A stretch of 64,000 nt of DNA from Dysgonamonadaceae bacterium. Lineage in GTDB: Bacteria > Bacteroidota > Bacteroidia > Bacteroidales > Azobacteroidaceae. The notes beneath the pieces are model-generated. The model was not told the DNA's origin. It was given only the letters and a program-made list of their open reading frames with translations, and did not search any database. The number at the start of each line of letters is the position of its first letter. The first letter of the stretch is position 1. The position numbers and the translations under genes were made by a program. The stretch is from assembly GCA_031272075.1 (NCBI GenBank), contig JAISUK010000049.1:1-64000 (forward strand). Direction: 5' to 3'. Below, one piece after another: positions 6,338-62,000 of this stretch.

Positions 6338-7747
6338 ATGAAAAATTCTACAATACATATCCTTTTTTATATTGCATGCCTGGTCGTGTCTTCATGCGAC
6401 GATCAGCTGAATATGTTGCCCACGCAGGTCAAAGTCGACGGAAATCTTATCGTTGACCAGAAAAGCGCCGAGATTGCGTTGAACGGCGCTTATTACAGGT
6501 ATGCCGTGTGCGGATTGGATAATTACAATGTGCCGACTACCAGTTGTTTTAATGATTTCGAGATTTATCCTGCCCAATTTGGAGGCGTTTTGCTTTATTA
6601 CCAGGGCGCTCAACCGTTGGAGTCCCATGCACTGAATGCAACAAGCTATTATGCGTCGGGGTTGTGGTTCGATTCGTACCAGTCGCTGTATGCCGCCAAC
6701 GGCGTAATCAGCCAGATGGAAGCCGCACCGGACGGCTGGTTTCAGAGCGGCAGAAAGACGGGAATCATCGGTGAAGCGCGTTTGCTGCGGGCTTTTACGC
6801 ATTATAACCTGCTTCGCTGGTTTGCGCAATATTATGACTACACTAGCTCGTATGGTGCATTAATCCGCAATGAAGTGGCCGTGACGGGCAATATCGCCAA
6901 AGACCGCAGTACCGTGAAAGAATCGTACGATGCCGTTTTGCAGGATATCGACTATGCCATCGAGCATTGCCCTGAAAGCAATGCGAAATATTATCTCAAC
7001 AAATGGGTCGCAAAAGGACTGAAAGCAAGGGTGTTGATGATGCGCGGTCAATCAGGCGATTATGCACAGGTTGTCTCCCTCACAACCGACATCCTCTCCA
7101 ATTCGCCCTATCAATTGGAGGATAAACTACAGGATATTTTCTATCTGAAAGGATTGGAAAGTCAAGAAGTGATGTTCGGCATCCAACCGAAAGAAGGACA
7201 AACCCGAAAAATGGAGGCTTATTACTATCGTAACGTTACGCAATTCTATCCGACGGAAAAATTCCTGTCGCTGTTTGATAACGATCCTCGGCGGGAATGG
7301 CTTTTTACGAATAATCTGATTACCAAATATTTGCACAATGACAACCCTGTCGCTACGCTGCTCGAAGAGGTGAACTACCAAATGCGGCTTACGGAATTTT
7401 ATCTGCTCAAAGCAGAAGCGCTGGTATTGACCGGCGGCGACAAAAATGAAGTCCGCGCGCTGTTGAAAGACGTGATGGCGACAGCAGGTATTACCGACCT
7501 CTCCGCTGTCGACAAAGCCACTAGCGACAATGATTTGCTTTCACTGATCTTTGAAGAGACATTGAAAAACCTGTTCTGCGAAAGCGGACGCGAACTCGAG
7601 ATCATGATGCGGATGCCAAAATCGATTGTGCAGCCGTTCAATTCTTTCTGCGACGCGCCTGACGTGATGATTTTGCCGATTCCTGCCGAAGAATTTAAGC
7701 AGAATCCGGTTCTGTCACAACAAAATCCGGGCTATTCCAAAGAATAA
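6338..7747 (+). CDS. SusD/RagB-family surface lipoprotein (locus 1)
   Basis: Substrate-binding lid of the SusCD complex, 469 residues, anchored through the lipobox cysteine at residue 20 (CLVVSSC). The SusD fold is indicated by the N-terminal segment after the lipobox (LNMLPTQ), the TPR-like helices with EARLLRAFTHYNLLRWFAQY, and the helix KWVAKGLKARVLMM. The C-terminal part (LTEFYLLKAEALVLTG, ESGRELEIMMRM, ILPIPAEEFKQNP) is also typical. Its start is 11 nt after the susC stop, in the same operon. The protein is shorter than many SusD proteins (500-600), as often seen for the RagB branch. Its stop codon is followed at once by a tandem octamer repeat. Confidence 0.9.
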   Translation: MKNSTIHILFYIACLVVSSCDDQLNMLPTQVKVDGNLIVDQKSAEIALNGAYYRYAVCGLDNYNVPTTSCFNDFEIYPAQFGGVLLYYQGAQPLESHALNATSYYASGLWFDSYQSLYAANGVISQMEAAPDGWFQSGRKTGIIGEARLLRAFTHYNLLRWFAQYYDYTSSYGALIRNEVAVTGNIAKDRSTVKESYDAVLQDIDYAIEHCPESNAKYYLNKWVAKGLKARVLMMRGQSGDYAQVVSLTTDILSNSPYQLEDKLQDIFYLKGLESQEVMFGIQPKEGQTRKMEAYYYRNVTQFYPTEKFLSLFDNDPRREWLFTNNLITKYLHNDNPVATLLEEVNYQMRLTEFYLLKAEALVLTGGDKNEVRALLKDVMATAGITDLSAVDKATSDNDLLSLIFEETLKNLFCESGRELEIMMRMPKSIVQPFNSFCDAPDVMILPIPAEEFKQNPVLSQQNPGYSKE

Positions 7748-7748
7748 T

Positions 7749-7781
7749 CCTTCAATCCTTCAATCCTTCAATCCTTCAATC
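7749..7781 (+). repeat. Tandem octamer repeat (TTCAATCC, about 4 copies)
   Basis: Directly after the SusD stop codon TAA (7745-7747), the unit TTCAATCC occurs three times in full and a fourth time with TTCAATCA. The same octamer reappears at 61931-61962. It is not coding here and lies between susD and the TlpA-like gene. Confidence 0.85.
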
Positions 7782-7802
7782 AATGTATTAATAACTCAAA
7801 AA

Positions 7803-8942
7803 ATGAAACACTCAACAATCTTATTTCTGGTGTGCCTCGCAATGGTTGCCTGCACACAAAAGCCCGACAGCAATGTTTTTGTATTGAAAGGCGCTGTCGA
7901 TGCGCACGACGGTGAGCAGGTCTATTTATATTATTCACTGGGGCTAAATAACCGTAATAGCGTAATTTCTGACACTACGCTTGTTGAAAATGGCAAGTTT
8001 GAATTTAAGGGCAAGCTCGATCAGGCAGTCAGTGCCACCATTTCCTTCGGAGATGCTCACGACCGGAACAACAAGCAACGAGTAAACTTTTTTATCGAAC
8101 CCAGCATCATGGAATTGACGCTGAACAACGACGATTTCAGTAAATCGGAATTGAAAGGATCAACGATAAATGACGAATGGAAACAGATTAACGCGGAAAG
8201 CGAAAAAATCAGGGAAGAAGCTGCGGCGCTGTATAAAGCGGTGGAAGAAGAAAAAGACGTCGAGAAGCGCGACAGCATCCGGGAACTGCTTGAACCCTAC
8301 ACTGCGCGTGTCCATAGTCTATACCTTGATTTTATAAAGAATAATCCCGATTCCTACCTTGCTGCATACCTTTTGCTGTATGAAAAGAGCCAACTTTCAT
8401 TTGAAGAATTGTCCGCGATTTACGGGGCTTTTTCCGACCGAGTGAAAAACAGCTCCTTTGCTTCGGGGACGAAAGAAGAGATCGCAACACTGAAAAATGT
8501 CCAGCCGGGAGCTACGGCGCCCTATTTTGCTACTGTGGATATTCATGGCGATTCGTTGCGAATCACGGATTTCAAAGGGAAATATGTGCTGCTCGATTTT
8601 TGGGCAAGCTGGTGCATCCCTTGTCGAAAAGGCAATCCGCATTTGAAAGCACTGTATGCCGAATACCATGACAAAGGATTGGAAGTGATTTGTGTGTCCG
8701 ACGACGACAGCAATCCCGACAAATGGCGCGAAGCAGTGGCGCAGGATGGCATCGAAGCCTTCCACCATGTGTTGCGTGGACTGGTGATTCGGGAAAAATT
8801 TGACCGCACCAACAGCATCAACGACAAATACGCCATCCATTTCCTGCCGACCAAGTACCTGATCGACAAGGAAGGAAAGATGATCGGGAAAGTCGAGGAA
8901 AAAGACCTCGATGAGCGACTGAAAGCCATCTTTTCGGAATAG
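7803..8942 (+). CDS. TlpA-like thiol-disulfide oxidoreductase lipoprotein (locus 1)
   Basis: Periplasmic or surface lipoprotein of 379 residues with lipobox cysteine at 17 (AMVACTQ). The N-terminal half (about 25-225) resembles DUF4369, a beta-sandwich followed by helices; the C-terminal half (about 235-379) is an AhpC/TSA-TlpA thioredoxin fold with the redox pair C271-C274 in FWASWCIPCRKG and the cis-proline loop FLPTKYLID. Such proteins reduce or exchange disulfides outside the cytoplasm. It ends locus 1, 55 nt after susD, across the octamer repeat. A protein of the same size and design (378 residues) ends locus 2 at 43155, which suggests the two loci share a redox need. Convergent with the gene at 8952, with 9 nt between stops. 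Confidence 0.88.
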   Translation: MKHSTILFLVCLAMVACTQKPDSNVFVLKGAVDAHDGEQVYLYYSLGLNNRNSVISDTTLVENGKFEFKGKLDQAVSATISFGDAHDRNNKQRVNFFIEPSIMELTLNNDDFSKSELKGSTINDEWKQINAESEKIREEAAALYKAVEEEKDVEKRDSIRELLEPYTARVHSLYLDFIKNNPDSYLAAYLLLYEKSQLSFEELSAIYGAFSDRVKNSSFASGTKEEIATLKNVQPGATAPYFATVDIHGDSLRITDFKGKYVLLDFWASWCIPCRKGNPHLKALYAEYHDKGLEVICVSDDDSNPDKWREAVAQDGIEAFHHVLRGLVIREKFDRTNSINDKYAIHFLPTKYLIDKEGKMIGKVEEKDLDERLKAIFSE

Positions 8943-11399: not shown

Positions 11400-12776
11400 T
11401 TAATCAAGTTTTACCAGCTCCACTTTCAGGGCTTGGGGTTTATTCAGCCGGTAGATCGTTTCTACCAGGCTTTGTTGTTCTTTCTCACTGTCTTCGCGGA
11501 CGCGTTTGTGCATGTAACGCAGCCAGTAATCGGCGGTCCAGTTGACAAAAGGATCGATGGCGCGGTATTTTTGTAATGTATCAACTGCGGCTTCATTGCA
11601 AGCCCACAGCATGTTGGTCTTGCGCATCAGGTTGTATTCTATCCAGTAGTATTCGCGGATCTGGCGTTCGATGAGCCAACGCCGTTCGTTCAATTCGCGT
11701 ATTTGCTCTGCCTGTTTGTTTTGCGGGGTATTCGCATAAGAAGCAAGGTTGATGCCCCGTTTCAGTTCGCCGGCAGTCAGTCGGGCGATAGGTTCATTTT
11801 CAATCTTCAACAGGTAATAGCCGTCTGATAGACCCGTCACAGCCAAGCCTTCGCAGTTCACTTCGTCCATAAACGGGATGACTTTCAAAGCATCGGCTTG
11901 GGTATGTTTTTCATTTTCATAATGGGAATAATCGATCGGGTAGGGTAGCGCTTTTGCCAGGTAAGTAAATCGGATATCCTTTGCCGAAACCGACAGATCC
12001 GTGATGCGGCAGTTGTCTGCGCGTTTTACAATCCGTCCGGAAGCATCGATGAGGATGTCGGCTACCGGCTTGCCGGTCAATCCCTGTGCTTTCAGAAACA
12101 GGTAAGCCATGACCAGGTGACCGTCGGTAGTGGGATGGATGCGGTCGGCGCCGCACAAGGTGTAGGTCGAATCCGCCTGTTGTTCGCGCTGGTTGATCGC
12201 CATCATCGGACGGTTGAAATCCAGGAAATGCCATTTGTTGATCTTGGCGCGCTGCTGCAGGAAGTCGGCAATCTGTTCAATCAGTCTGTTCTTCCCTGGG
12301 AAAGGCGTTTGATTGAAACGGGCGCTTTCGTCGTAGGGCGAACTTCCGATCAACACTTTATTGATGGTTGGATATTTTTTCAGTTCTGTCTCTATCTTTT
12401 GATAGTCTTCGCAGGCGACGGCTACATTCTTGCTGCCGATAGCGCCATTCTCCGGTTGGGTGTAGTCCATATATCCGACATCGTTCATTCCGAAAGAGAG
12501 CGTCACCAGGGTTGGTTGATGTTCAAACACTTTGTCCAATCGCAGGTACATCATGTTGGCGACATCCCCGCCGATCCCTTCATTGTAAATACTGATCCGC
12601 CGATCCGGGAAATGCGTCATGTAGTACAACCAGATATAACTGTGATAATGTCCGCCACAAGTGATGCTGTTTCCAACAAACACGATCCGTTCACCGTCGG
12701 CAAACGCCGGAACGGATTGCGATTTTGCCCCGCAAACCGATAGCAGGATGCAGAGCGCTGATAATTTAATTTTCAT
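11400..12776 (-). CDS. Secreted SGNH/GDSL hydrolase (probable carbohydrate esterase)
   Basis: Exported (signal peptide about 1-19, LSALCILLSVCGAKSQ) hydrolase of 458 residues. The four SGNH blocks are visible: Ser37 in VFVGNSITCGG, Gly in IGGDVAN, Asn98-Asp99 in LSFGMNDVG, and Asp211/His214 in DRIHPTTDGH. Beyond about residue 240 is a C-terminal extension of roughly 200 residues seen in polysaccharide-associated esterases. Likely removes acetyl or similar ester groups from glycans before the neighbouring glycosidases act; the exact ester is inference. The gene follows GH78 on the same strand, but the 122-nt gap holds hairpin copy 1. The ATG at 12776 stands in the conserved context GACGTATGAAA shared with the gene at 18654. 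Confidence 0.87.
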   Translation of the reverse strand: MKIKLSALCILLSVCGAKSQSVPAFADGERIVFVGNSITCGGHYHSYIWLYYMTHFPDRRISIYNEGIGGDVANMMYLRLDKVFEHQPTLVTLSFGMNDVGYMDYTQPENGAIGSKNVAVACEDYQKIETELKKYPTINKVLIGSSPYDESARFNQTPFPGKNRLIEQIADFLQQRAKINKWHFLDFNRPMMAINQREQQADSTYTLCGADRIHPTTDGHLVMAYLFLKAQGLTGKPVADILIDASGRIVKRADNCRITDLSVSAKDIRFTYLAKALPYPIDYSHYENEKHTQADALKVIPFMDEVNCEGLAVTGLSDGYYLLKIENEPIARLTAGELKRGINLASYANTPQNKQAEQIRELNERRWLIERQIREYYWIEYNLMRKTNMLWACNEAAVDTLQKYRAIDPFVNWTADYWLRYMHKRVREDSEKEQQSLVETIYRLNKPQALKVELVKLD

Positions 12777-12799
12777 ACGTCAATAAATTTTTTTTAAAA

Positions 12800-12866
12800 G
12801 GTCGTATGGAACTCGCATGTCATTATTGTCATCAACTTGGATGTTTGATAATCATGCTCGTTTCAT
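12800..12866 (-). repeat. 61-nt hairpin leader element, copy 1
   Basis: Core at 12806-12866, read on the minus strand toward the SGNH gene. Outer arms ATGAAACGAGCATG and CATGCGAGTTCCAT pair over 14 positions with one A-C mismatch and a central tandem G-A/A-G; inner stems ATTAT/ATAAT and CATC/GATG close a six-base loop. CGACC and an A/T tail of 23 nt then lead to the ATG at 12776. Lies 32 nt after the GH78 stop. Confidence 0.85.
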
Positions 12867-17514: not shown

Positions 17515-17543
17515 GGAATTGAATATTGCCATTATTCAATTCC
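17515..17543. terminator. Hairpin between convergent genes, probable bidirectional terminator
   Basis: Perfect 11-bp stem GGAATTGAATA / TATTCAATTCC (17515-17525 with 17533-17543) and a 7-nt loop, between the GH127 stop (17503) and the GHL stop (17536). The T-run after it is weak on both strands. Confidence 0.55.
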
Positions 17544-18654
17544 GTTTCTTCCGGATTGCTTTGTCAAATACCGCCCAGTGAGCATCGGTCATTCGCCCAG
17601 GAGTAAAGAGACAAATGCCCGATGCGCCGCTTTCCATCGATCCATCGATCGCTTCTTCCATTTCCGAAGGCAACAAACCATGCCCTTCGGGGTCTTTGAT
17701 GTCGGCTTTGTTTTCCCAATCTCGGCAGATGAACAGCCCGCTGTAAACAGGCGCCTTGCCTGCCACGGCCTCTACTTCTTCCTTGGTGATGTCGCGTAGC
17801 CAGTCGGCTCCTTCAAGATAAAAATCGTTGTAATTCATCGGAAAAAAAGCATCGACATTCCATTTGTTCCACTCCTGGCGAACCAGCGCTTTCGCGAGTT
17901 CCGGTCCGGGGAAGACCGCCGCGCTGACTTTTTTTCCTTGTGCGTGGATCACGTCAGTTAATCGGTTGACTAAATTCGTTATCAGATCATAGCGGTATTG
18001 TTTCCATTCCTGGCAGGTCGACGGATCGTCGTACGCACGGATATCAATTCCCGAAGTTTCCTTAAATCCATTCACGCACGCATCGCAATAGCAATAATCG
18101 GCGACCGGATATTCTTCATCCATCACAAGTCCGTATTTTTCCCACAGCCCGCGAGGGAGGATAACATCCGGGAAACGGATAAAATCGAAATGGACATAAT
18201 CTACTTCCGGGATTTCGGCAATTTTTGTGTATATCTCAACAAGATAATTGTAAACTTCATCCTTGTTGGGGCATAAGAACTTGTAGCGCGGTACATAAGC
18301 TTGCACATCGTATGCCGAATCACCGTTGCGGTTGACAGCATACCAGGTGGAGTCGGCATCCTGCTTGCGCATGGTTACGTGCCAGGCGTGGTATTCCATT
18401 CCGTTGGCGTGAGCTGCTTTCGCGGCCATGGCGATCATTTCCGGATTATCGCCCGCACCGTTGCATATCCCGATGATTCCATGGCTTTTCAGCTTGGCAT
18501 ATTGAGCAGTCAGCGAATCGATGTTGCTATGCCGTCCGCTGTTTGTCCAGGCATAAACTTTTACTCCGGGAGCCTGGTCTTTTGTGCAAGACGCGAGGCA
18601 CAATCCCATTGTAAATAATACAATCAAAAACAGTTTGTTAAAGTTAATTTTCAT
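17536..18654 (-). CDS. TIM-barrel glycoside hydrolase-like lipoprotein (GHL10-like)
   Basis: Lipoprotein of 372 residues (CLASCTKD, Cys23). The body reads as a (beta/alpha)8 glycosidase-like barrel: VKVYAWTNSGR as strand 1, GMEYHAWHVTM, then VDYVHFDFIRFPDV carrying the Asp/Arg pair typical of GHL10 and related proteins, KVSAAVFPGPELAKAL, VDAFFPMNYNDFY and SGASGICLFTPGRM. A YCYCDACVNGFKE cysteine cluster near residue 190 may bind metal or form disulfides. No activity is established for this group, so the function is open; polysaccharide trimming outside the cell is inferred from the neighbours. Follows the sulfatase on the same strand with hairpin copy 2 in the 92-nt gap. Confidence 0.7.
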   Translation of the reverse strand: MKINFNKLFLIVLFTMGLCLASCTKDQAPGVKVYAWTNSGRHSNIDSLTAQYAKLKSHGIIGICNGAGDNPEMIAMAAKAAHANGMEYHAWHVTMRKQDADSTWYAVNRNGDSAYDVQAYVPRYKFLCPNKDEVYNYLVEIYTKIAEIPEVDYVHFDFIRFPDVILPRGLWEKYGLVMDEEYPVADYCYCDACVNGFKETSGIDIRAYDDPSTCQEWKQYRYDLITNLVNRLTDVIHAQGKKVSAAVFPGPELAKALVRQEWNKWNVDAFFPMNYNDFYLEGADWLRDITKEEVEAVAGKAPVYSGLFICRDWENKADIKDPEGHGLLPSEMEEAIDGSMESGASGICLFTPGRMTDAHWAVFDKAIRKKRN

Positions 18655-18676
18655 ACGTCAATAATTTTTTTTTTAA

Positions 18677-18743
18677 GGTCGTATGGAACTCGCATGTCAT
18701 TATTTTCATCAGCTTGGATGTTTGAAAATCATGCTCGTTTCAT
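18677..18743 (-). repeat. 61-nt hairpin leader element, copy 2
   Basis: Core at 18683-18743, read on the minus strand, beginning 3 nt after the sulfatase stop codon and ending 28 nt before the GHL start. Arms are identical to copy 1; it differs from the five-copy consensus only at core positions 32 and 39, both in loop regions. The tail ends in the context GACGTATGAAAATTAA, shared with copy 1 through the first codons of the next gene. Confidence 0.85.
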
Positions 18744-20270: not shown

Positions 20271-20278
20271 TACTTTTG
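20271..20278 (+). promoter_or_regulatory. Bacteroidetes -7 box TACTTTTG for GH20
   Basis: TACTTTTG matches TAnnTTTG and lies only 4 nt before hairpin copy 3, so the hairpin would sit at the very 5' end of the GH20 transcript. Confidence 0.55.
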
Positions 20279-20282
20279 GGCA

Positions 20283-20349
20283 ATGAAACGAGCATGATTT
20301 GCAAACATCCGAGTAGATGACAATAATGACATGCGAGTTTCATGCGACC
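20283..20349 (+). repeat. 61-nt hairpin leader element, copy 3
   Basis: Core at 20283-20343. The right arm ends GTTTCAT instead of GTTCCAT, which restores a full Watson-Crick match to ATGAAAC in the left arm (core positions 4 and 58). Three loop or inner-stem positions also differ from consensus. A 23-nt A/T tail follows to the ATG at 20373. Confidence 0.87.
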
Positions 20350-20372
20350 TTTTAAAAAATAATTATTGAAGT

Positions 20373-22919
20373 ATGAATTACAAAGTACAAAAACGCAAAA
20401 GTAAATTTATCATGAGACCTCTAATTTATATAGTTGGAATTGCATTGTTGCTTCCGATGTGTACAAACAAAAGCAACGACAACCACAAGCCTTTTTCACT
20501 GATCTGGGAAATGGGGAAAAACGGCATCGAACGCGGTTATTACGAGAGCACGTTTTATCTCGTAAACAATACCAACGACACATTGGCAGGCAATTGGGTC
20601 ATCTATCTCTGCCAACACCCCGGAAGTGTAAAACCGAATCCGGAAGCTCCCGCCATCCTGGAAGTAATCAACGGCACCTACTTTAAAATCTATCCGTCTT
20701 CGCATTATCTTCCTGTTGCACCGGGCGATACATTGCCGATGTCTTTCCTGTGCAGGGGCGGCATTATTAAACAATCGGACGCCCCCGAAGGCGCGTACTG
20801 CGTGATGCTGGATGCGGACGGCAACGAATCCGCCCCGTGTACGATTGATATCGAAGTGAAGCCGTTTACGCATGATTACCAATGGTCGAGGGAATGGATG
20901 CACGAATTGCCATACCCTGACGGCAACTATGTGTATGACCGCAATGCGGTTTTTTCGGAAAAGCCGACATTGAAATCGACCGACCTGTTTCCGTCGCTGA
21001 AATCCGTACAGGAGAACGGGGGTGCATTTTCCTTTACGAAAGAAGTGCGAGTGCAATCTGATTCTGTATTCGCCAATGAAGCGAGTCTGCTGAAAGAAAA
21101 ACTCGGCCAAATGTATGACTGTATAATTATGGAAAACGCGCCGGTTGAAATTCTCCTGCGACAAGCATCATTTCCCGTAGCAAACGACGAATATTACCAA
21201 ATGGAACTCGCCGACGGACGGATCGAAATCAAAGGCAACACCCCACATGCCATCTTCAATGGAACACAGACATTGCTGGCCATGCTCGGCAACAACACTT
21301 TGCCCTGCGCATTGCCCAATGTCGGCATTACCGATTATCCCGATTTATTTTACCGCGGAATCATGCTCGACGTCGCCCGCAATTTTACTTCCAAAGCGCA
21401 TGTCATGCAATTGATCGATCTGCTCGCTTCCTATAAAATCAATGTGTTGCATTTCCATATTGCGGACGATGAAGGCTGGCGTGTTGAAATTCCCGGATTG
21501 GAAGAACTGACTGCCGTCGGCTCCCGCAGGGGACATACGCACGACGAAAACGACTGTCTGATCCCCGCATATTGTGGCGGCTGGGATCCAAACGATCCCC
21601 AATCTACCGCGAATGGTTATTACACACGCGACGAATTTATTGAGTTATTGCAATACGCGCAGGCGCATCATGTGAAAGTGATCCCGGAAATCGATATGCC
21701 GGGACATTCCCGCGCTGCCATCAAAGCGATGAACAACCGTTACCGCAAATACATCCACTCGGATGAACCGAAAGCGGAAGAATTCCTGTTGATTGATTTC
21801 GCCGACACTTCGCGTTACGTGTCGGCACAGTGCTATACCGACAATGTAATCAATGTGGCGCTTCCGGGAGTTTACCGTTTTGTCAAGAAAGTGGTAGACG
21901 AGATAAGCGCCATGTATCATGATGCCGGAGTGCCGTTGACCATCCTGCACCTGGGCGGAGATGAAGTCCCCCGTGGTGCATGGACAGGCTCGGAAATTGC
22001 TAATCAATTCATGAAGGAAAAAGGATTCCGCGAAATCCGTGAATTGAAAGATTATTTTATCTCGCAAGTCGTTTCTATTCTGTCAGAAAAAAACATCCAA
22101 CTGGCAGGCTGGCAGGAGGTCGGATTGTTGCCCGACGAAACTCCCAATCCGAAATTTGCCGGGAAAAACATCCTAAGCTATTGTTGGAATACCGTTCCCG
22201 AATGGAATGGCGACCAAGTTCCCTATCGTTTGGCCAATGCGGGATACCCGATTGTGCTGTGCAATGTAACAAACCTTTATTTCGACATGTCGTACAGCAA
22301 GCATCCGGCAGAACCCGGCCTCTATTGGGGCGGTTTTGTCAATGAATACAACCCTTTCAATGTGGTGCCTTACGAGATCTACAAATCCATACGCTACAAT
22401 TTGGCCGGCGATTCTGTCGATATCCTTCGGCGATCGCAAGAACGACTGGCTTTGTCTGCCGACAGACGCAATGAAATAGTAGGCATACAAGCCCAATTGT
22501 GGGCGGAAACCATTCGCGATTTCGACCGGATCACCTATTATATCTTTCCTAAACTTTTCGGTCTGACGGAAAGAGCCTGGAACGCTTTCCCCGTTTGGGC
22601 AGATGATCCTTACGGCGAATTATACGACCGCGACCTGCAAATATACAATGCCAAGATTGCGCAACGCGAACTGCCCCGATTGGCTGCTCAACAGGTTACT
22701 TTCAGGGTGGCGCAACCGGGAATAAAGCTGATAGACGGCTATTTATACGCCAATTCTACCATCCCCGATGCGGAAATTCGTTATACCATCGATGGCTCTG
22801 AACCCAATAAAAAATCGATTTTGTGGACATCGCCGATCGCCTGTACTGCAAAATTGATCAAGGCAAAATCTTTTTATTGCGGAAGAGAAAGTGTAACAAC
22901 CTTATTAAAACCACTCTAA
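20373..22919 (+). CDS. GH20 beta-N-acetylhexosaminidase, exported
   Basis: Exported glycosidase of 848 residues; a second ATG at 20412 gives a cleaner lipoprotein signal (MRPLIYIVGIALLLPMC). The ATG at 20373 keeps the fixed distance to the hairpin element. Order: CHB-HEX-like N-terminal domain (NDTLAGNWVIYLCQHPGSV), GH20b domain (ADGRIEIKGNTPHAIFNGTQ), GH20 barrel starting YRGIMLDVARNF with the catalytic pair D530-E531 in ILHLGGDEVPRGAW, and a C-terminal domain with PDAEIRYTIDGSEP. The Asp polarises the substrate acetamido group and the Glu is the acid. Removes terminal GlcNAc or GalNAc from glycans. Divergent from the sulfatase. An imperfect hairpin (22907-22953) after the stop may terminate transcription. 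Confidence 0.92.
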   Translation: MNYKVQKRKSKFIMRPLIYIVGIALLLPMCTNKSNDNHKPFSLIWEMGKNGIERGYYESTFYLVNNTNDTLAGNWVIYLCQHPGSVKPNPEAPAILEVINGTYFKIYPSSHYLPVAPGDTLPMSFLCRGGIIKQSDAPEGAYCVMLDADGNESAPCTIDIEVKPFTHDYQWSREWMHELPYPDGNYVYDRNAVFSEKPTLKSTDLFPSLKSVQENGGAFSFTKEVRVQSDSVFANEASLLKEKLGQMYDCIIMENAPVEILLRQASFPVANDEYYQMELADGRIEIKGNTPHAIFNGTQTLLAMLGNNTLPCALPNVGITDYPDLFYRGIMLDVARNFTSKAHVMQLIDLLASYKINVLHFHIADDEGWRVEIPGLEELTAVGSRRGHTHDENDCLIPAYCGGWDPNDPQSTANGYYTRDEFIELLQYAQAHHVKVIPEIDMPGHSRAAIKAMNNRYRKYIHSDEPKAEEFLLIDFADTSRYVSAQCYTDNVINVALPGVYRFVKKVVDEISAMYHDAGVPLTILHLGGDEVPRGAWTGSEIANQFMKEKGFREIRELKDYFISQVVSILSEKNIQLAGWQEVGLLPDETPNPKFAGKNILSYCWNTVPEWNGDQVPYRLANAGYPIVLCNVTNLYFDMSYSKHPAEPGLYWGGFVNEYNPFNVVPYEIYKSIRYNLAGDSVDILRRSQERLALSADRRNEIVGIQAQLWAETIRDFDRITYYIFPKLFGLTERAWNAFPVWADDPYGELYDRDLQIYNAKIAQRELPRLAAQQVTFRVAQPGIKLIDGYLYANSTIPDAEIRYTIDGSEPNKKSILWTSPIACTAKLIKAKSFYCGRESVTTLLKPL

Positions 22920-23093: not shown

Positions 23094-25790
23094 ATGAAAA
23101 AAAATCAAAAAACAGGATCTGTATCACAGATTGGATTATGTTTATTGTTTCTTGGCATGAGCATAGTTTCTTATGCTCAAACCGAGTACAAAACATTCAC
23201 AGGAAAAGAGATTGTACTTGCAGGTAGCGGAACTAACGATAACTGCAAAGTGTTTGAATGGTTCACCGATGGTGGAGCAATTGAGTATGGGGAGGGGACA
23301 AACAGCATCACGCTGGTGTACACTACCCCAGGGACTAAATCCCCGAGACTGAAATACCGATTGAACGGCGTTCTCAAGAATGATCTGTTCACGGTTACGG
23401 TTTACGAAAAACCGACTTTCGATGCGATTCTATACAAAGAAATCTGCTCGGGAGAAGCGTTTCAGCCGGAAATTCCGACCATCCAAGGAGATTACGACCC
23501 CGAAAGCCTGCAATGGTGGCTGGACGGGAATGCCATTCAAAGCGGCGACGTATTAACCTTCGCCGATAACGGAAAGTTCTTGCAGTGTTCTGTCGAAACG
23601 CCTGTAGGCAAGGTTTACAGCGACGGACTATCCATTCAGGTCAAAGATCGCCCGACCATCCTTGCAATCAAAGGATTGCCCGTTTCTCCGGTGTCGCAAG
23701 ATGAAATTCATCTTTCCGTTGACGTCAATGACAACGGTTCCGCCATTACAAAATATGTCTGGAAAGTGGCGGACAACATTGTCAGTGAGGGGTCAGATGA
23801 ATTGGTCTACCAGGTACAGGCGGCAGACAGGGGAAAAATTGTTTCGATAGAAACGACCAACGGTTGTGGAAGCACTGCCTCTACCCACCGCATCTCGTCG
23901 GAAACGATTCAAACAGCCGTCAATAAAGCGCTCCCGGCTACCGTTCCGGTTCCGGAATCGTTCATCGTAGCCGATTTCGATGCCGAAAAGGACGACCACA
24001 CACTCCCCGACAGTTATTGGACAAGTAAATACAATAAGTTTTATACCAGCAGAACCAATACTTACAAGGTTGGGTCGAAAGTCTGGTTTGATTACAACAA
24101 GACCCGGAACGGATGGGTTCCATCGCAAACCGGTTACGGCAGTGAATTTACCGTATATAAATCGCCCATGTATTTTGATGATATTTCCCGTGACAACAAT
24201 ACAACGATCTTGTTGGATTATACCGATACTTACGTGATCGACGTGAGTACGGATGAAAATCGGGTGTTCCAATTTTTCAAAAATTCGGACGGATTTAGTT
24301 CGGGATGTAAAATCTTCGGGCTGAAGGCCGTAACCAATGGCGTTGTGGATGACAGCAAGAAACCGACAATCATTTTCAATTCTCCCGACGTCAAAAACGT
24401 ATTGCCTACAGCGATGCGCATCCAATCCGTCGCCAATTGCGTCATCGAAAACGTCAAATTCGATGGGAACGACCGGACTTTCTATAACTACGGCATCATT
24501 GTCATAGACGGCGAAACCGGATTACAAAACAACGATTATTTGATAATGAAAGACATCAATATCGCACGGTTTAAGAATACTGTCATCGCCGCAAGGCCTC
24601 GCGCTGTCATCGCCTTTATTGCACTGAACCGCAGAAAAACAACCGATCCGCTCTACGTCAAAAATCATCGGTATGTGATCGACATGAAGGTCGAATCCAG
24701 TTGTGAAGCAGTAGAGGGCTCCGGTACGGGCATCAATTCCGCTCTGTATGTATATGGGAGTGACAATATTTTCTTCAATCGCTTAACCGTAGCGATCGGC
24801 ATTGACCATTTCGATGACGCCCTGATCATCGGATCGGGCGGCTACGAATCAGAGTTGGTCGATTCACGTAATGTAATATTCAAAGACTTGGTGTCGGCGG
24901 TCGATAAGATTCGATTGACCAACACCTACGGACACCGTCACATTGTGATTCCCGAAAAATACCGCTATTACCGCTTTACGCCGAAAGCAAACTTTTCGAT
25001 GGAAGCGTTTGCAGTGGAACCTCAATTTGTAGATACGGCAATTCTTTATGACCGAAAAATAGGCTATTACATTGTTCCTAATACCTTGGCTACTTCCAAT
25101 TTTGAAGCTTTGCGTGACATGTACAAGGCCTACCTGGATCCAAAAACCGGTCCTGAAACCGTCAAGGGCTGTCCGTTGCCGAATATCCTCTTGCTTATGG
25201 ATTCGGATCATCCGACCGTCGAAGGATTTACTGTTCCCGATCTGGGGATAGGAAATGTTCCGGTGAATATTGTTGCCGTTGATTACAACGATTACCATCT
25301 TGGCGCACAGCAAGATCCGAAAAAATCATGGCTTTACAATTCGGAAACCCCAATCGTCTTTGAAAAAGCAAACAGCGATCAGAAAATCAGCCTCTACAAT
25401 GTGGATTTTTCCCAATCGAACTATTCTATCGATGATCCTTTGGAAAATACCCAATCCGGATCGTACTATAACTGCTTGATAAACAAACACGTAGAATCCA
25501 ATTCCAGCCTCGATCAATTGACGATCGAAACCCTGTTGCTGGCTTTAGATAAAGTGGACAACGGCGATGTGGAAATTTCTTCCGTCAACAACCAGTTGGA
25601 AATCAGCAGCGCTGCCGATCCGATCCAGCAAGTGGATTGCTATGACCTGCAAGGCCGTTTAATAGCGACCAAGGCCAACATCAATCTGCCTGCCTGCACG
25701 CTCACAGTTCCTGCCGCCAATGGCGTGGTTATCGTGAAAGTCAGAACTGCGACACAAACAGTGGCCAGAAAGTTGAGAGTCAGTGATTAG
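23094..25790 (+). CDS. Large secreted beta-helix-like protein of unknown function with T9SS-type C-terminus
   Basis: I do not recognise a named family. 898 residues from the ATG at 23094, which starts a signal peptide (IGLCLLFLGMSIVSYAQ); the frame opens at 23040. Residues about 20-280 look like two or three Ig/PKD-like modules (CKVFEWFTDGGAIEYGEGTN, ITKYVWKVADNIVSEGSDEL). The middle part, about 420-640, has short repeated beta turns as in a right-handed parallel beta-helix (VANCVIENVKFDGNDRTFYN, YLIMKDINIARFKNTVIAA, VYGSDNIFFNRLTVAIG). The last 75 residues (CYDLQGRLIATKANINLP, ending ARKLRVSD) resemble a type A type IX secretion sorting domain. A polysaccharide-binding or lyase-like role is possible because beta-helix enzymes are common in such islands. 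It stands alone with its own promoter. Confidence 0.6.
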   Translation: MKKNQKTGSVSQIGLCLLFLGMSIVSYAQTEYKTFTGKEIVLAGSGTNDNCKVFEWFTDGGAIEYGEGTNSITLVYTTPGTKSPRLKYRLNGVLKNDLFTVTVYEKPTFDAILYKEICSGEAFQPEIPTIQGDYDPESLQWWLDGNAIQSGDVLTFADNGKFLQCSVETPVGKVYSDGLSIQVKDRPTILAIKGLPVSPVSQDEIHLSVDVNDNGSAITKYVWKVADNIVSEGSDELVYQVQAADRGKIVSIETTNGCGSTASTHRISSETIQTAVNKALPATVPVPESFIVADFDAEKDDHTLPDSYWTSKYNKFYTSRTNTYKVGSKVWFDYNKTRNGWVPSQTGYGSEFTVYKSPMYFDDISRDNNTTILLDYTDTYVIDVSTDENRVFQFFKNSDGFSSGCKIFGLKAVTNGVVDDSKKPTIIFNSPDVKNVLPTAMRIQSVANCVIENVKFDGNDRTFYNYGIIVIDGETGLQNNDYLIMKDINIARFKNTVIAARPRAVIAFIALNRRKTTDPLYVKNHRYVIDMKVESSCEAVEGSGTGINSALYVYGSDNIFFNRLTVAIGIDHFDDALIIGSGGYESELVDSRNVIFKDLVSAVDKIRLTNTYGHRHIVIPEKYRYYRFTPKANFSMEAFAVEPQFVDTAILYDRKIGYYIVPNTLATSNFEALRDMYKAYLDPKTGPETVKGCPLPNILLLMDSDHPTVEGFTVPDLGIGNVPVNIVAVDYNDYHLGAQQDPKKSWLYNSETPIVFEKANSDQKISLYNVDFSQSNYSIDDPLENTQSGSYYNCLINKHVESNSSLDQLTIETLLLALDKVDNGDVEISSVNNQLEISSAADPIQQVDCYDLQGRLIATKANINLPACTLTVPAANGVVIVKVRTATQTVARKLRVSD

Positions 25791-25813: not shown

Positions 25814-25850
25814 AAATCGCCTGGGTTTGCATTGCAAATTCAGGCGATTT
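25814..25850. terminator. Rho-independent terminator, probably bidirectional
   Basis: Ten-bp stem AAATCGCCTG / CAGGCGATTT (25814-25823 with 25841-25850), with an inner TTTGC/GCAAA stem in the loop. On the minus strand it is followed by a run of nine T. It can end the plus-strand gene and any read-through from tRNA-Lys. Confidence 0.75.
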
Positions 25851-25921: not shown

Positions 25922-25994
25922 TGATCCATCTGGGGCTCGAACCCAGGACCCCATCCTTAAAAGGGATGTGCTCTACCTGCTGAGCTAATGAATC
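25922..25994 (-). tRNA. tRNA-Lys (anticodon TTT)
   Basis: 73 nt. Acceptor GATTCAT pairs with ATGGATC (one G-T), D arm with AGCTCAGCAGGTAGAGC, anticodon arm CATCC-CTTTTAA-GGATG giving anticodon TTT, T arm with GGTTCGAGCCC, discriminator A. CCA is not encoded, as expected for Bacteroidetes. Promoter and terminator flank it. Confidence 0.93.
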
Positions 25995-46400: not shown

Positions 46401-46467
46401 ATGAAACGAGCATGATTTTCAAATATCCAAGTTGATGACAATAATGACATGCGAGTTCCATACGACC
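46401..46467 (+). repeat. 61-nt hairpin leader element, copy 4
   Basis: Core at 46401-46461; one difference from consensus (core position 24, C to T, which leaves a G-U pair in the CATC/GATG stem). The 22-nt A/T tail ends in an ATG at 46490, but that ATG is followed by AAA TAA, so the conserved start here opens only a two-codon frame. The true CYTH start is at 46510. Confidence 0.85.
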
Positions 46468-46509
46468 TTTATAAACAAATTATTTACGTATGAAATAAAT
46501 AACTGAATC

Positions 46510-50324: not shown

Positions 50325-51290
50325 TTATCTAAAGTTTCCAATGGCCGCCAGATCGATGGAATATGTATCACGGAAGTATTTTTGGATGATCTCGAATTTT
50401 TCCTGAATGATGTCATTCACGATCAGCGGTTGTATTTCCTCGGTGGTTTTTTGTGTCAGCTGGGTGATATATGCAAACACGTCATTTTTTTTGTTGCGGG
50501 TAGTTGACGACTGAAACCAGTTGCTTGCCGTTACATTGAAGACAATCGGAGCGGTAAGCATGAAGGCGGAAGAACTCGTTGAAAGGGTCATTTGTGGGAT
50601 AAAGCCCCGTCCGGGTGCAGCTGCGACGGTGACGGTGGTGGAATAATCCGACAATTCATCCCAACGCTCAGGCAGGTTGATGAAGTCGAAAATTTCTTTC
50701 TCGAAATAATACCGCCAGACGGTCGCCTGAATTCTGTCTCTCATGGTCTGTTTCCCTGCGTCGTCCAGTGTCCGTAAATCCTCGCTCAATGTGGTAAACG
50801 CCAATGACATACCGGTAATTTTGTACGCATAATACAGCCCTTGCCGTTGCGCCGGATTGTAAACGCCGGGCACCCTTAACGATTGAATGCTGTCGGTCAG
50901 GAAGACGCGGTAGGGCAGTCCCGCCCCTTTCATGAACTCGTCGGGAAACAGGCCTATCCAGTACTTATCGAGCAGGTTCAACATGGCTTCCACATATTCG
51001 GGATTTTCTGGCGTGCCGATGATTTGAGCGCTATTAGCCGAGCCGCTGGCAATGGTCCATTCAAAATCTTTCTGCGTAAAGTTATACAGTATGTACGAGC
51101 CATAGGTATCGTAAATTTGCTGTATCCTGTCGTTGGCCGTCTGGGACGCATTCCCTTGCGGCAGCGTATAATCCGGTTCAATGGGCAACGGGTCGCCGAT
51201 CGGCGTATCTTCGTAACACGAATAAAGCAGCAAACCCACGATGCCGACCGCCATCAAACGTATCATATTGTTATTAATCATTAATTTCAT
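50325..51290 (-). CDS. SusCD-associated metallohydrolase-like lipoprotein lacking HExxH
   Basis: 321 residues with lipobox LLLYSC (Cys25). The order of segments resembles the substrate-import-associated zinc metallohydrolase lipoproteins that follow SusC/SusD pairs: an N-terminal DRIQQIYDTYGSYILYNFTQ, then NPEYVEAMLNLLDKYWIGLF and LPYRVFLTDSIQSLR. In that family the next helix carries HExxH; here it reads ATVWRYYFEKEIFDFINLPE and no HExxH occurs anywhere in the protein. It is therefore probably a non-catalytic relative, or a peptidase of unusual type. Last gene of locus 3, after a 92-nt gap filled by a heptamer repeat. Family assignment is by eye and moderate. Confidence 0.6.
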   Translation of the reverse strand: MKLMINNNMIRLMAVGIVGLLLYSCYEDTPIGDPLPIEPDYTLPQGNASQTANDRIQQIYDTYGSYILYNFTQKDFEWTIASGSANSAQIIGTPENPEYVEAMLNLLDKYWIGLFPDEFMKGAGLPYRVFLTDSIQSLRVPGVYNPAQRQGLYYAYKITGMSLAFTTLSEDLRTLDDAGKQTMRDRIQATVWRYYFEKEIFDFINLPERWDELSDYSTTVTVAAAPGRGFIPQMTLSTSSSAFMLTAPIVFNVTASNWFQSSTTRNKKNDVFAYITQLTQKTTEEIQPLIVNDIIQEKFEIIQKYFRDTYSIDLAAIGNFR

Positions 51291-51313
51291 AACTCAAAAC
51301 ATTTAAATTAATG

Positions 51314-51369
51314 TCTAACTTCTAACTTCTAACTTCTAACTTCTAACTTCTAACTTCTAACTTCTAACT
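51314..51369. repeat. Tandem heptamer repeat (TCTAACT, 8 copies)
   Basis: Eight perfect copies of TCTAACT (minus strand AGTTAGA) plus a partial ninth to 51375, in the gap between the SusD stop (51382) and the next gene. Perfect identity points to slippage-prone or recent expansion. Confidence 0.92.
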
Positions 51370-51381
51370 TCTAATTCTCTC

Positions 51382-58189: not shown

Positions 58190-58771
58190 TCAAATAAGGA
58201 GCAGAAGCACTTGGAGGTATTCCGAGAACTCGACGCGTAAGACCGATAAGGCATGCTTGATATGATATTTGACGGTGTTGACGGAAATGTTTAACTCTGC
58301 GGAGATTTCTTGGTAATTTTTTTGTTCAAAACGACTTTTGATGAATACGGCGCGACATTCTTCGGGGAGCGCTTCAATGCTTCGGGTCAACAAGTCCTCC
58401 AGCTCCTGCTCCAACAACGCACCCAGGGGATGTTCGTCGGTTACGAAGAACGAATCGGCGAAATTGCTATTTTCGGAATGTGGAAAAGCGGAAAAACAGT
58501 GCTCTTTTCGATGGGTTAAAGTATTCAATTCGTTCAGACAACGGTTGCGTACCGCACGCAGCAGGTAGGCGCGCAGGGAGTAAGCGATCTCTAAGTCTGC
58601 ACGGTGTTCCCACAGATAGAAAATCACATCGTTTACAATTTCTTCGGCGAGAAAGGCATCGTTCAGAATCAGGTTTGCAAAACGACAGAGTAATACATAG
58701 TGTCGGTCATAGATATGTTTGAAAGCTTTTTCGTCGCCGGCCTTCAACTTTTCAATGATGAGCTTCTCCAT
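58190..58771 (-). CDS. ECF RNA polymerase sigma factor (locus 3)
   Basis: About 193 residues from the ATG at 58771 (MEKLIIEKLKAGDEKAF); an ATG at 58783 adds four residues. Region 2: YDRHYVLLCRFANLILNDAF, LAEEIVNDVIFYLWEHRADL. Region 4: LPEECRAVFIKSRFEQKNYQ, EISAELNISVNTVKYHIKHA. It belongs to the sigma group paired with FecR and SusC and should drive locus 3 and perhaps itself. Separated from the FecR gene by a small secreted-protein gene. Its leader contains hairpin copy 5 and a TACCTTTG box 186 nt upstream, so it has a long 5' leader of about 165-180 nt. Confidence 0.9.
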   Translation of the reverse strand: MEKLIIEKLKAGDEKAFKHIYDRHYVLLCRFANLILNDAFLAEEIVNDVIFYLWEHRADLEIAYSLRAYLLRAVRNRCLNELNTLTHRKEHCFSAFPHSENSNFADSFFVTDEHPLGALLEQELEDLLTRSIEALPEECRAVFIKSRFEQKNYQEISAELNISVNTVKYHIKHALSVLRVEFSEYLQVLLLLI

Positions 58772-58868
58772 AATTACTTCCACTTGTTTCTATTTGCTTA
58801 TTCTGTAGCAGAAAACTGCGAGAGGCATTCCTCCATCTCTTCACCCGCTTATTTGTTCACGGCTCACC

Positions 58869-58935
58869 GGTCGTATGGAATTCGTATGTCATTATAGTCA
58901 TCAATTTGGATGTTTGAAAATCATGCTCGTTCCAT
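58869..58935 (-). repeat. 61-nt hairpin leader element, copy 5 (divergent)
   Basis: Core at 58875-58935, minus strand. Five differences from consensus. Core position 4 is G, giving a G-C pair with position 58 (ATGGAAC with the end CCAT), while positions 51 and 55 changed to A. The A/T tail with the start codon is absent; CGACC is followed by a G/C-rich stretch (CGGTGAGCCGTG). Lies 98 nt before the sigma start. Confidence 0.82.
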
Positions 58936-60266: not shown

Positions 60267-62000
60267 ATGAATTATTTCAGAACAGTATTGTGCTTGACCA
60301 TTGTAATGAATTTTGCGTGTCTGAAAGCACAACTCAACGAGACACAGCATTTTGAAGTCAGCAAGAACTTGGATATTTTTAATTCCGTATTCAAAGAATT
60401 GAATCTGTTTTACGTCGATTCGATTGATGCGAAAACCGCCATACAGACCGGAATTGAGAGTATGCTTGAAACGCTGGATCCTTATACCGAATACATTTCG
60501 GAAGACCAGATGGCCGATTTTAAGTTCAAAATTACCGGTGAATATGCGGGGATCGGGGCTGTCATTACTTTTCGCGACGGGAAGATCCTGATTATGGATC
60601 CCTACGAGGGAATGCCCGCAGCACGAAGCGGGTTGCAGGCGGGAGACCAGATCCTGGAGATCGATGGTGAATCGCTTGCAGGAAAATCTTCGGCTGATGC
60701 CAGTGAGAAATTGAAAGGCCAACCGGGATCGAAAGTGAAAATCAAATACCTGCGGCAAGGCACAAAAAAGCCGGTGACCATCGAAATCGAACGCGAACGC
60801 ATTCACCTCTCCCCCATCACCTATTATGGGGTGCTGGACAGTACTATCGGCTATATTGCGCTCTCCAATTTCACCGATCAATGTTTTCAGGATTTCAGGG
60901 CTGCCTTCGTCGATTTGAAGAAAAATCACGGCATCACATCGTTGATCATTGATTTGCGCAACAATCCCGGAGGAATCATGGAAGAAGCTTTGCAGATTGT
61001 GAATATGTTTGTTCCCAAAGGGAAGGTGCTCCTTTCTACCAAAGGGAAAGTGAAACAGTGGGACAGGGTGTTTCGTGCGACACAAAATCCGGTGGATCTG
61101 GAAATTCCACTGGTGGTGATGGTAAACCGCGGATCGGCTTCCGCCTCCGAAATAGTGGCGGGAGCTTTGCAGGATTTGGACAGGGCGGTGATTGTAGGCC
61201 GTCGCTCATACGGGAAAGGGCTGGTTCAAACGCCGCGCGACTTGCCGTATAATGCCCAGTTGAAAATCACCACCTCCAAATATTATATCCCCAGCGGTCG
61301 TTGTGTGCAGGCGATCGATTATGCCCATCGCAATCCGGAAGGCTATGCCGAACGTATCCCTGATAGCCTGACAACGGTGTTTTATACCGAAAATCGGCGT
61401 CCTGTGCGGGATGGGGGAGGCGTCAATCCTGATTTCATTGTTGCGGAAGAACGCATTCCGACCATCTCTTTTTATATGGACAATGACGGAATCTTTTTTG
61501 ATTTTGTGGTGCAGTGGCGGATTCTGCATCCGGAGATAGCCACGCCGTTCGACTTTCAGCTCTCGGATGCCGATTACGAAGAATTTAAGCGATTCGTCAA
61601 GGAGAAGCATTTTGATTACGACCGCCAAAGCGGAAAAGCGCTGCAAGCCCTCAAGGAAATTATGGTATTTGAAGGATACATGAATACCGCTTCCGAAGAA
61701 TATGCTTTGCTGGAAAAGAAACTGCAACCGGATCTGGATCGGGATCTGGAATTATACAAGCCCCAATTGAAAAAAATATTGGCGAGCGAAATCATGAACC
61801 AATATTATTACTGGAAAGGAAAACTCATCCATTCGCTCTATAATGATGACAGCGATTTGAACAAAGCGATCGAAATCGTCAAAGACAAATCGCTGTATGA
61901 TTCAACGCTCAAACCGGCGATTACCGACCCTCAATCCTTCAATCCCTCAATCCTTCAATCCTTCAGCCAACTGTCGAACCACCTGAAAAATTCTCGTTGA
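60267..62000 (+). CDS. C-terminal processing peptidase (family S41) with PDZ domain
   Basis: Exported serine protease, 577 residues from the ATG at 60267 (signal peptide TVLCLTIVMNFACLKAQ); a TTG at 60258 would overlap the kinase stop. PDZ domain at about 85-180 (GEYAGIGAVITFRDGKILIM, SGLQAGDQILEIDGESLAGK), protease core with GYIALSNFTDQCFQDFRAAF, DLRNNPGGIMEEAL, catalytic Ser in NRGSASASEIVAGAL at about 287-300 and Lys in GRRSYGKGLVQTP. It removes C-terminal tails of periplasmic proteins. The last 25-30 residues are encoded by the octamer repeat (PQSFNPSILQSFSQ) and by the antisense of the S9 gene, so the C-terminus is probably an accidental extension. Its 3' end overlaps the S9 stop by 46 nt. 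Confidence 0.9.
   Translation: MNYFRTVLCLTIVMNFACLKAQLNETQHFEVSKNLDIFNSVFKELNLFYVDSIDAKTAIQTGIESMLETLDPYTEYISEDQMADFKFKITGEYAGIGAVITFRDGKILIMDPYEGMPAARSGLQAGDQILEIDGESLAGKSSADASEKLKGQPGSKVKIKYLRQGTKKPVTIEIERERIHLSPITYYGVLDSTIGYIALSNFTDQCFQDFRAAFVDLKKNHGITSLIIDLRNNPGGIMEEALQIVNMFVPKGKVLLSTKGKVKQWDRVFRATQNPVDLEIPLVVMVNRGSASASEIVAGALQDLDRAVIVGRRSYGKGLVQTPRDLPYNAQLKITTSKYYIPSGRCVQAIDYAHRNPEGYAERIPDSLTTVFYTENRRPVRDGGGVNPDFIVAEERIPTISFYMDNDGIFFDFVVQWRILHPEIATPFDFQLSDADYEEFKRFVKEKHFDYDRQSGKALQALKEIMVFEGYMNTASEEYALLEKKLQPDLDRDLELYKPQLKKILASEIMNQYYYWKGKLIHSLYNDDSDLNKAIEIVKDKSLYDSTLKPAITDPQSFNPSILQSFSQLSNHLKNSR
61931..61962 (+). repeat. Tandem octamer repeat (TCAATCCT, 4 copies)
   Basis: Units TCAATCCT, TCAATCCC, TCAATCCT, TCAATCCT, the same octamer family as at 7749-7781 in another register. 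It lies at the convergent ends of the S41 and S9 genes and contributes codons to the S41 frame. Confidence 0.88.

Follow-up and report, generated by a model that had tools for sequence, protein, structure and literature searches.

A hairpin lies in the leader of a GH20 beta-hexosaminidase gene in the window (the whole 64,000-nt stretch of DNA that was analyzed), and it was found to be one copy of a dispersed element of about 90 nt, designated E, which ends exactly at the start codon. Five copies are present in the window (Table 1), all far above chance by a covariance model that was built on 23 sequences, this genome's consensus among them. The layout of the element is ATGAAAC-GA-GCATG-loop-CATGC-GA-GTTCCATACGACC-A-rich tail-ACGT, followed by ATGAA. 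Conservation past the hairpin had been overlooked in the original prediction. In the alignment, the tails of the five window copies are alike (CGACC-TTTTAAAAA(C)AAATTATTGACGT, then ATGAA), and because the conserved stretch takes in the A-rich tail and reaches the start codon, E as a unit measures about 90 nt and ends in ATGAA.

The spacing of 4 nt that had been proposed between a -7 box and the hairpin of copy 3 agrees with the coordinates (TACTTTTG at 20271-20278, element start ATGAAACGAGC... at 20283). The proposed distance of 23 nt from the hairpin to the ATG holds only when GCGACC is counted in; pairing in the right arm stops at 20343, which leaves 29 nt. The boxes of copies 4 and 5, TAAGTTTG and TACCTTTG, do end 34 and 21 nt upstream, respectively, and copies 1 and 2 are intergenic between genes of the same strand, as judged by the window ORFs. 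The predicted placement in 5′ leaders or intercistronic gaps, on the sense strand and near a start codon, is correct and is valid genome-wide.

Table 1. Copies of element E in the window and the features next to them.
Feature	Position	Strand	Details and basis
E copy 1	12772..12866	-	5′ end at 12866; covariance model E-value 3e-17; ATG opens a 458-aa ORF
Gene of E copy 1		-	GDSL lipase (Pfam)
E copy 2	18650..18743	-	E-value 4e-17; 3 nt past the upstream sulfatase gene (Pfam)
Gene begun by the 3′ ATG of copy 2	17536-18654	-	372 aa; weak glycosyl-hydrolase-like Pfam match
-7 box TACTTTTG, Bacteroidetes-type, of the native promoter	20271..20278	+	Sequence; TAnnTTTG enrichment upstream of E
E copy 3	20283..20377	+	E-value 1e-13; 3′ ATG at 20373
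Hairpin P1 of copy 3	20283..20343	+	ATGAAAC-GA-GCATG ... CATGC-GA-GTTTCAT; fold, class-wide covariation
Hairpin P2 of copy 3, start codon inside	20341..20375	+	CATGCG ... AGTATG; 5 of 6 pairs kept; model alignment, covariation
GH20 beta-hexosaminidase gene begun by copy 3	20373-22919	+	848 aa; Pfam GH20 1e-90
E copy 4	46401..46494	+	E-value 9e-17; its own ATGAAATAA is a dead end
CYTH-domain gene just downstream of copy 4	start 46510	+	Pfam
E copy 5, degenerate tail	58840..58935	-	E-value 3e-6
ECF-type sigma factor gene downstream of copy 5	58190-58783	-	Pfam sigma-70 r2/r4

Rfam detected only tRNAs in the window, and at four E loci nothing credible, and no family above its gathering score, was found. 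An 18-nt inverted repeat (89% complementary) at 25814-25850, between a gene end at 25790 and a tRNA at 25922, is perhaps a terminator. Tandem arrays of the heptamer TAACTTC and the octamer AATCCTTC were observed at 51309-51381, 7746-7783, and 61933-61970. The first of these occupies the gap upstream of a gene with its start at 51290, and the second is located upstream of a gene at 7803. These arrays resemble in kind the TAACTGA repeats of PMC4679880.

Copies across the genome and among Bacteroidia

The 3.0-Mb assembly of this genome, a MAG of 93% completeness, was searched with a 22-nt core pattern, two mismatches being allowed. At least 108 copies were counted, 56 on one strand and 52 on the other, and 0 were obtained with a reversed-pattern control. 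Eighty stretches were read and about 100 copies were aligned, showing a median divergence from the consensus of 4 in 90 positions, by substitutions. The 3′ end (...ACGT, then ATGAA) opens a long sense ORF in 76 of the 95 full-length copies, with the ATG at element offset 88-92 in most copies (full range 81-100). Most of the other copies are also followed, within about 200 nt, by the start of a gene on the same strand, and hardly any lack a nearby one. While 76 full copies are at starts and 19 elsewhere, the non-coding ATGAA sites without E in the stretches read divide into 114 at starts and 197 elsewhere, an excess of E at start codons with an odds ratio of 6.9 (p = 6e-14), these counts being approximate with gene calls taken as crude longest ORFs.

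The genes with E include transketolase and AroA, both confirmed by orthologs, and, by N-termini only, ProC, SusD-like lipoproteins, and others. No common function was seen among the genome copies or in the Pfam matches of the window, and predicted signal peptides were not enriched (48 of 76 versus 62 of 106 E-less ATGAA genes, p = 0.54). Of approximately 100 copies, about 34 have a TAnnTTTG box whose end is no more than 80 nt upstream of E, compared with about 3 expected, and no such box was seen inside E. Because the boxes are upstream and not inside, E is placed in 5′ leaders downstream of the native promoter or, like window copies 1 and 2, between two genes of the same strand. The left flank of E is unconserved except for A/T richness, and no GTAG-type tetranucleotide guide was found 5′ of the hairpin foot. 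Head-to-tail tandem copies, repeating about every 90-100 nt, occur in this genome (locus L013) and in genomes G107 and G326, as would be expected if E inserts at the ATGAA of another E.

Truncated copies (L016, L039, L075, and L013 near 203) read into genes in frame from an internal ATG, which suggests that ATGs inside E can become start codons. Some E-less genes possess an E-tail-like start context, TTATTGACGTATGAA (L004 near 3285 on the minus strand, L006:3879, L065:998, window 43138, and others), and of 104 E-less genes that start with ATGAA, 15 have ACGT directly before it. Such contexts are either footprints of lost E copies or an older start motif. Because E-less genes share this context, the right boundary of E or the history of its tail is provisional.

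At the transketolase and AroA loci, E was found in this genome only, and about 27 and 15 orthologs, respectively, in the relatives searched, including those of the same-genus genome G002, have ordinary leaders and the same protein start. These E-less leaders are A-rich and often carry a TAnnTTTG box. At both loci, orthologous sites with and without E could be compared and the junction is precise; it is fixed by the protein start only, as the flanking DNA of the distant relatives does not align. Because the orthologs of the relatives are E-less and begin at the same position, E was gained in the lineage of this genome as a precise insertion that kept the protein start.

An exact-pattern contig search located E in termite-gut Dysgonomonadaceae, Candidatus Symbiothrix, and Lentimicrobiaceae, and also in a Paludibacter, a Prolixibacteraceae, Marinilabilia rubra, and others. 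Among 395 genomes sampled from Bacteroidia, the covariance model detected relatives of E in 58, belonging to 34 genera, and many of these 58 contain at least 10 scored copies. Of 52 copies sampled from Bacteroidia, 43 have a long ORF beginning at the 3′ ATG. The loop sequence is homogeneous within one genome and different between genomes. No match to E was found in phages, plasmids, or viral contigs.

Two hairpins and the start codon

RNAalifold was run on 23 diverse copies and returned two hairpins, P1 and P2. P1 consists of AAC/GTT, a GA/GA mismatch, and then GCATG/CATGC; in some families (L111, L093, L089) the mismatch is replaced by Watson-Crick pairs. P2 is formed by CATxyz with z'y'x'ATG, and this ATG is the start codon, contained in P2 in every family seen (variants CATACG/CGTATG, CATGTG/CACATG, CATCTG/CAGATG, and CATATG/CATATG). 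Covariation was evaluated on 53 distinct model-fitted sequences, an alignment biased towards structure, in which 94% of cells pair and 84 double-change cells were counted versus 22.7 after shuffling; slid controls collapsed. The pairs of P2, which are short and adjoin the fixed ATG, gave a shuffle p value of 1.5e-4 and are visible by eye in unfitted sequences. A conserved covarying structure, as is looked for in a cis-regulatory leader, is present at the start codon.

By folding, the predicted unpaired fraction of the AUG was 0.24 with E versus 0.44 without E (p = 1.7e-7), and the region around the start was on average more open with E (0.59 versus 0.52). Private mutations affected the helices (0.60 per site) and the loop (0.61 per site) alike, and shared variants avoid the helices, both patterns being based on small numbers. 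These two patterns suggest that the structure is needed for copying and not for the host gene after insertion, because the shared variants spare the helices and the private ones do not.

Candidate explanations

We consider it likely that E is a non-autonomous mobile element of about 90 nt, start-codon-specific and inserted in the sense direction, rather than the leader of a regulon. The original prediction is partly supported: its placement of the hairpin holds, and the roles that it proposed (protecting RNA, controlling translation, or binding a protein) are candidate functions, of which an effect on translation is permitted by the covarying second hairpin with the AUG inside. The data favor a mobile element at start codons first, because more than 100 near-identical copies stand at functionally unrelated genes, because the orthologs in relatives are without E, and because private mutations are equally frequent in stems and loops. 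E would insert exactly in front of ATGAA, with a strong preference for the ATGAA of gene starts, and ...ATGAA would be restored on insertion. The host gene would then retain its promoter and start codon and gain a longer 5′ leader, and E would be tolerated for this reason. The start-codon preference could also be produced by selection after insertion instead of targeting.

P1 and P2 may be kept for copying or target choice, since the internal TTCCATxyz can pair with both ends of E: with ATGAAAC on the left, and on the right with z'y'x'ATGAA, which includes the start codon. An identical A.C mismatch occurs in the two pairings. Guide pairing at the ends of IS200/IS605 elements has been described (PMC6006769), and by analogy we infer that guide pairing may also operate in E. 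A further proposal is put forward tentatively, namely that E represents a new class of mobile element that would find start codons by pairing of TTCCATxyz with z'y'x'ATGAA, leave the protein unbroken, and carry in P2 a hairpin able to control translation of the host gene. A translational side effect on its own is plausible to likely on the predicted structure, since P2 pairs the AUG. Bacteroidota are without Shine-Dalgarno sequences, and mRNA structure tunes initiation in them (PMC3155529, PMC6847099).

If P1 and P2 instead made up a translational switch, in which P2 conceals the start codon and the balance is shifted for a scattered regulon by some protein or condition, E would be a cis-acting regulatory leader. 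The covarying AUG within P2 in every family, the lower predicted openness of the start codon, and the sense orientation near it are all consistent with such a switch. However, the genes have no common function, helices are hit by private mutations as often as loops, orthologs in relatives are without E, and the start region as a whole is on average more open with E, so that we regard this explanation as unlikely. The regulon itself was rejected on the lack of functional enrichment among genes with E. A coding leader peptide was also rejected, because the copies do not preserve an in-frame reading and differ in length (ATG offsets 81-100) by amounts most of which are not divisible by three. If E were a mobile promoter, spreading by driving downstream genes, it would likewise be a dispersed upstream repeat in one orientation, but the TAnnTTTG boxes lie upstream of E with none seen inside, and at some copies the genes on both sides share a strand; this candidate was rejected and is highly improbable.

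The remaining explanation is that E is REP- or IS200-like and is copied by a Y1 (HUH) transposase, perhaps lost or unassembled here. The strand-specific GA/GA mismatch and the guide-like end pairing resemble the logic of IS200/IS605 (PMC6006769), and Y1 genes are commoner in E-bearing genomes (49 of 58 versus 210 of 337, p = 0.0009, in a tally by eye that ignores kinship). Moreover, a Y1 gene of the genome G002 has E at its start codon (L221 183-717), and a second, shorter copy of this locus nearby is without both. On the other hand, no match to Y1_Tnp (PF01797) was found in this genome, a 93% complete MAG, or in G275 (5 contigs, 100% complete), and both are rich in E. E was absent near all 20 Y1 loci of E-bearing genomes, and no convincing E was found near 29 of 30 family loci, so that the L221 copy is the only confident E at a Y1 locus (0 of 20 and 1 of 30), where REP/RAYT elements would be expected to flank the gene. 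The Y1 loci that were read have ordinary REP-like repeats, and the closest relatives of the G002 Y1 protein, homologs at 63-68% identity, are without E and with other repeats. The G002 locus, which at first resembled an autonomous copy with its empty site, is therefore no more than a lead, also because a deletion between 9-bp repeats (ATTATGAAA) equally explains the short copy; E may have inserted here as at other start codons, with this deletion coming afterwards. A Y1 transposase was rejected as the mobilizer and is quite unlikely, given that this genome has no Y1 match and that E elsewhere is not at Y1 loci. As a separate observation, Y1 (RAYT-like) genes in many Bacteroidia (L180-L199) have ordinary REP-like palindromes on their flanks, which show no relation to E. 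A reverse transcriptase search (RVT_1) also gave no match in this genome; with Y1_Tnp and RVT_1 searched and no mobilizing enzyme found, the enzyme could be missing because the MAG is 93% complete.

If E is a mobile element at start codons, it would spare its host, since each insertion falls exactly at the beginning of a gene and a working start codon is left behind, and it would have rewritten the 5′ leader in a few percent of genes, housekeeping genes included. In a phylum whose translation begins without Shine-Dalgarno sequences, the copies of E would serve as a natural set of exact additions to 5′ leaders. They also pose a testable question, namely which enzyme can recognize start codons.

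Comparison with known elements

Broadly, E is one of the hairpin elements that are dispersed and non-autonomous. No description of it was found in Rfam or in a literature search, most subscription journals being outside the reach of the latter. Like the elements of the REP/RAYT system (TnpA_REP, IS200/IS605-like), E is short, multicopy, hairpin-forming, extragenic, and genome-specific in sequence. In contrast to them, it is about 90 nt long, has two hairpins, lies in one orientation at start codons, and was not found with Y1 genes, this genome being without a Y1 match. HEARO / IscB omega-RNA elements prefer ATGA/GTGA sites, and E shares with them a possible preference for an ATGA-type site. 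Both are structured elements (PMC9755519), whereas E has no Rfam HEARO match and no ORF and is shorter.

The MITE of Porphyromonas gingivalis (PMC4596501) resembles E as a non-autonomous, dispersed element of Bacteroidota; in contrast to it, E is without terminal inverted repeats at its bounds, is single-oriented, and ends in a start codon. The TAACTGA heptamer repeats (PMC4679880) are also found in Bacteroidetes just upstream of the start codons of unrelated genes, but E is no tandem heptamer; it is structured and itself provides the context of the start codon. What is new in E is the exact insertion at the start codon in one orientation, together with a conserved hairpin that has the start codon inside.
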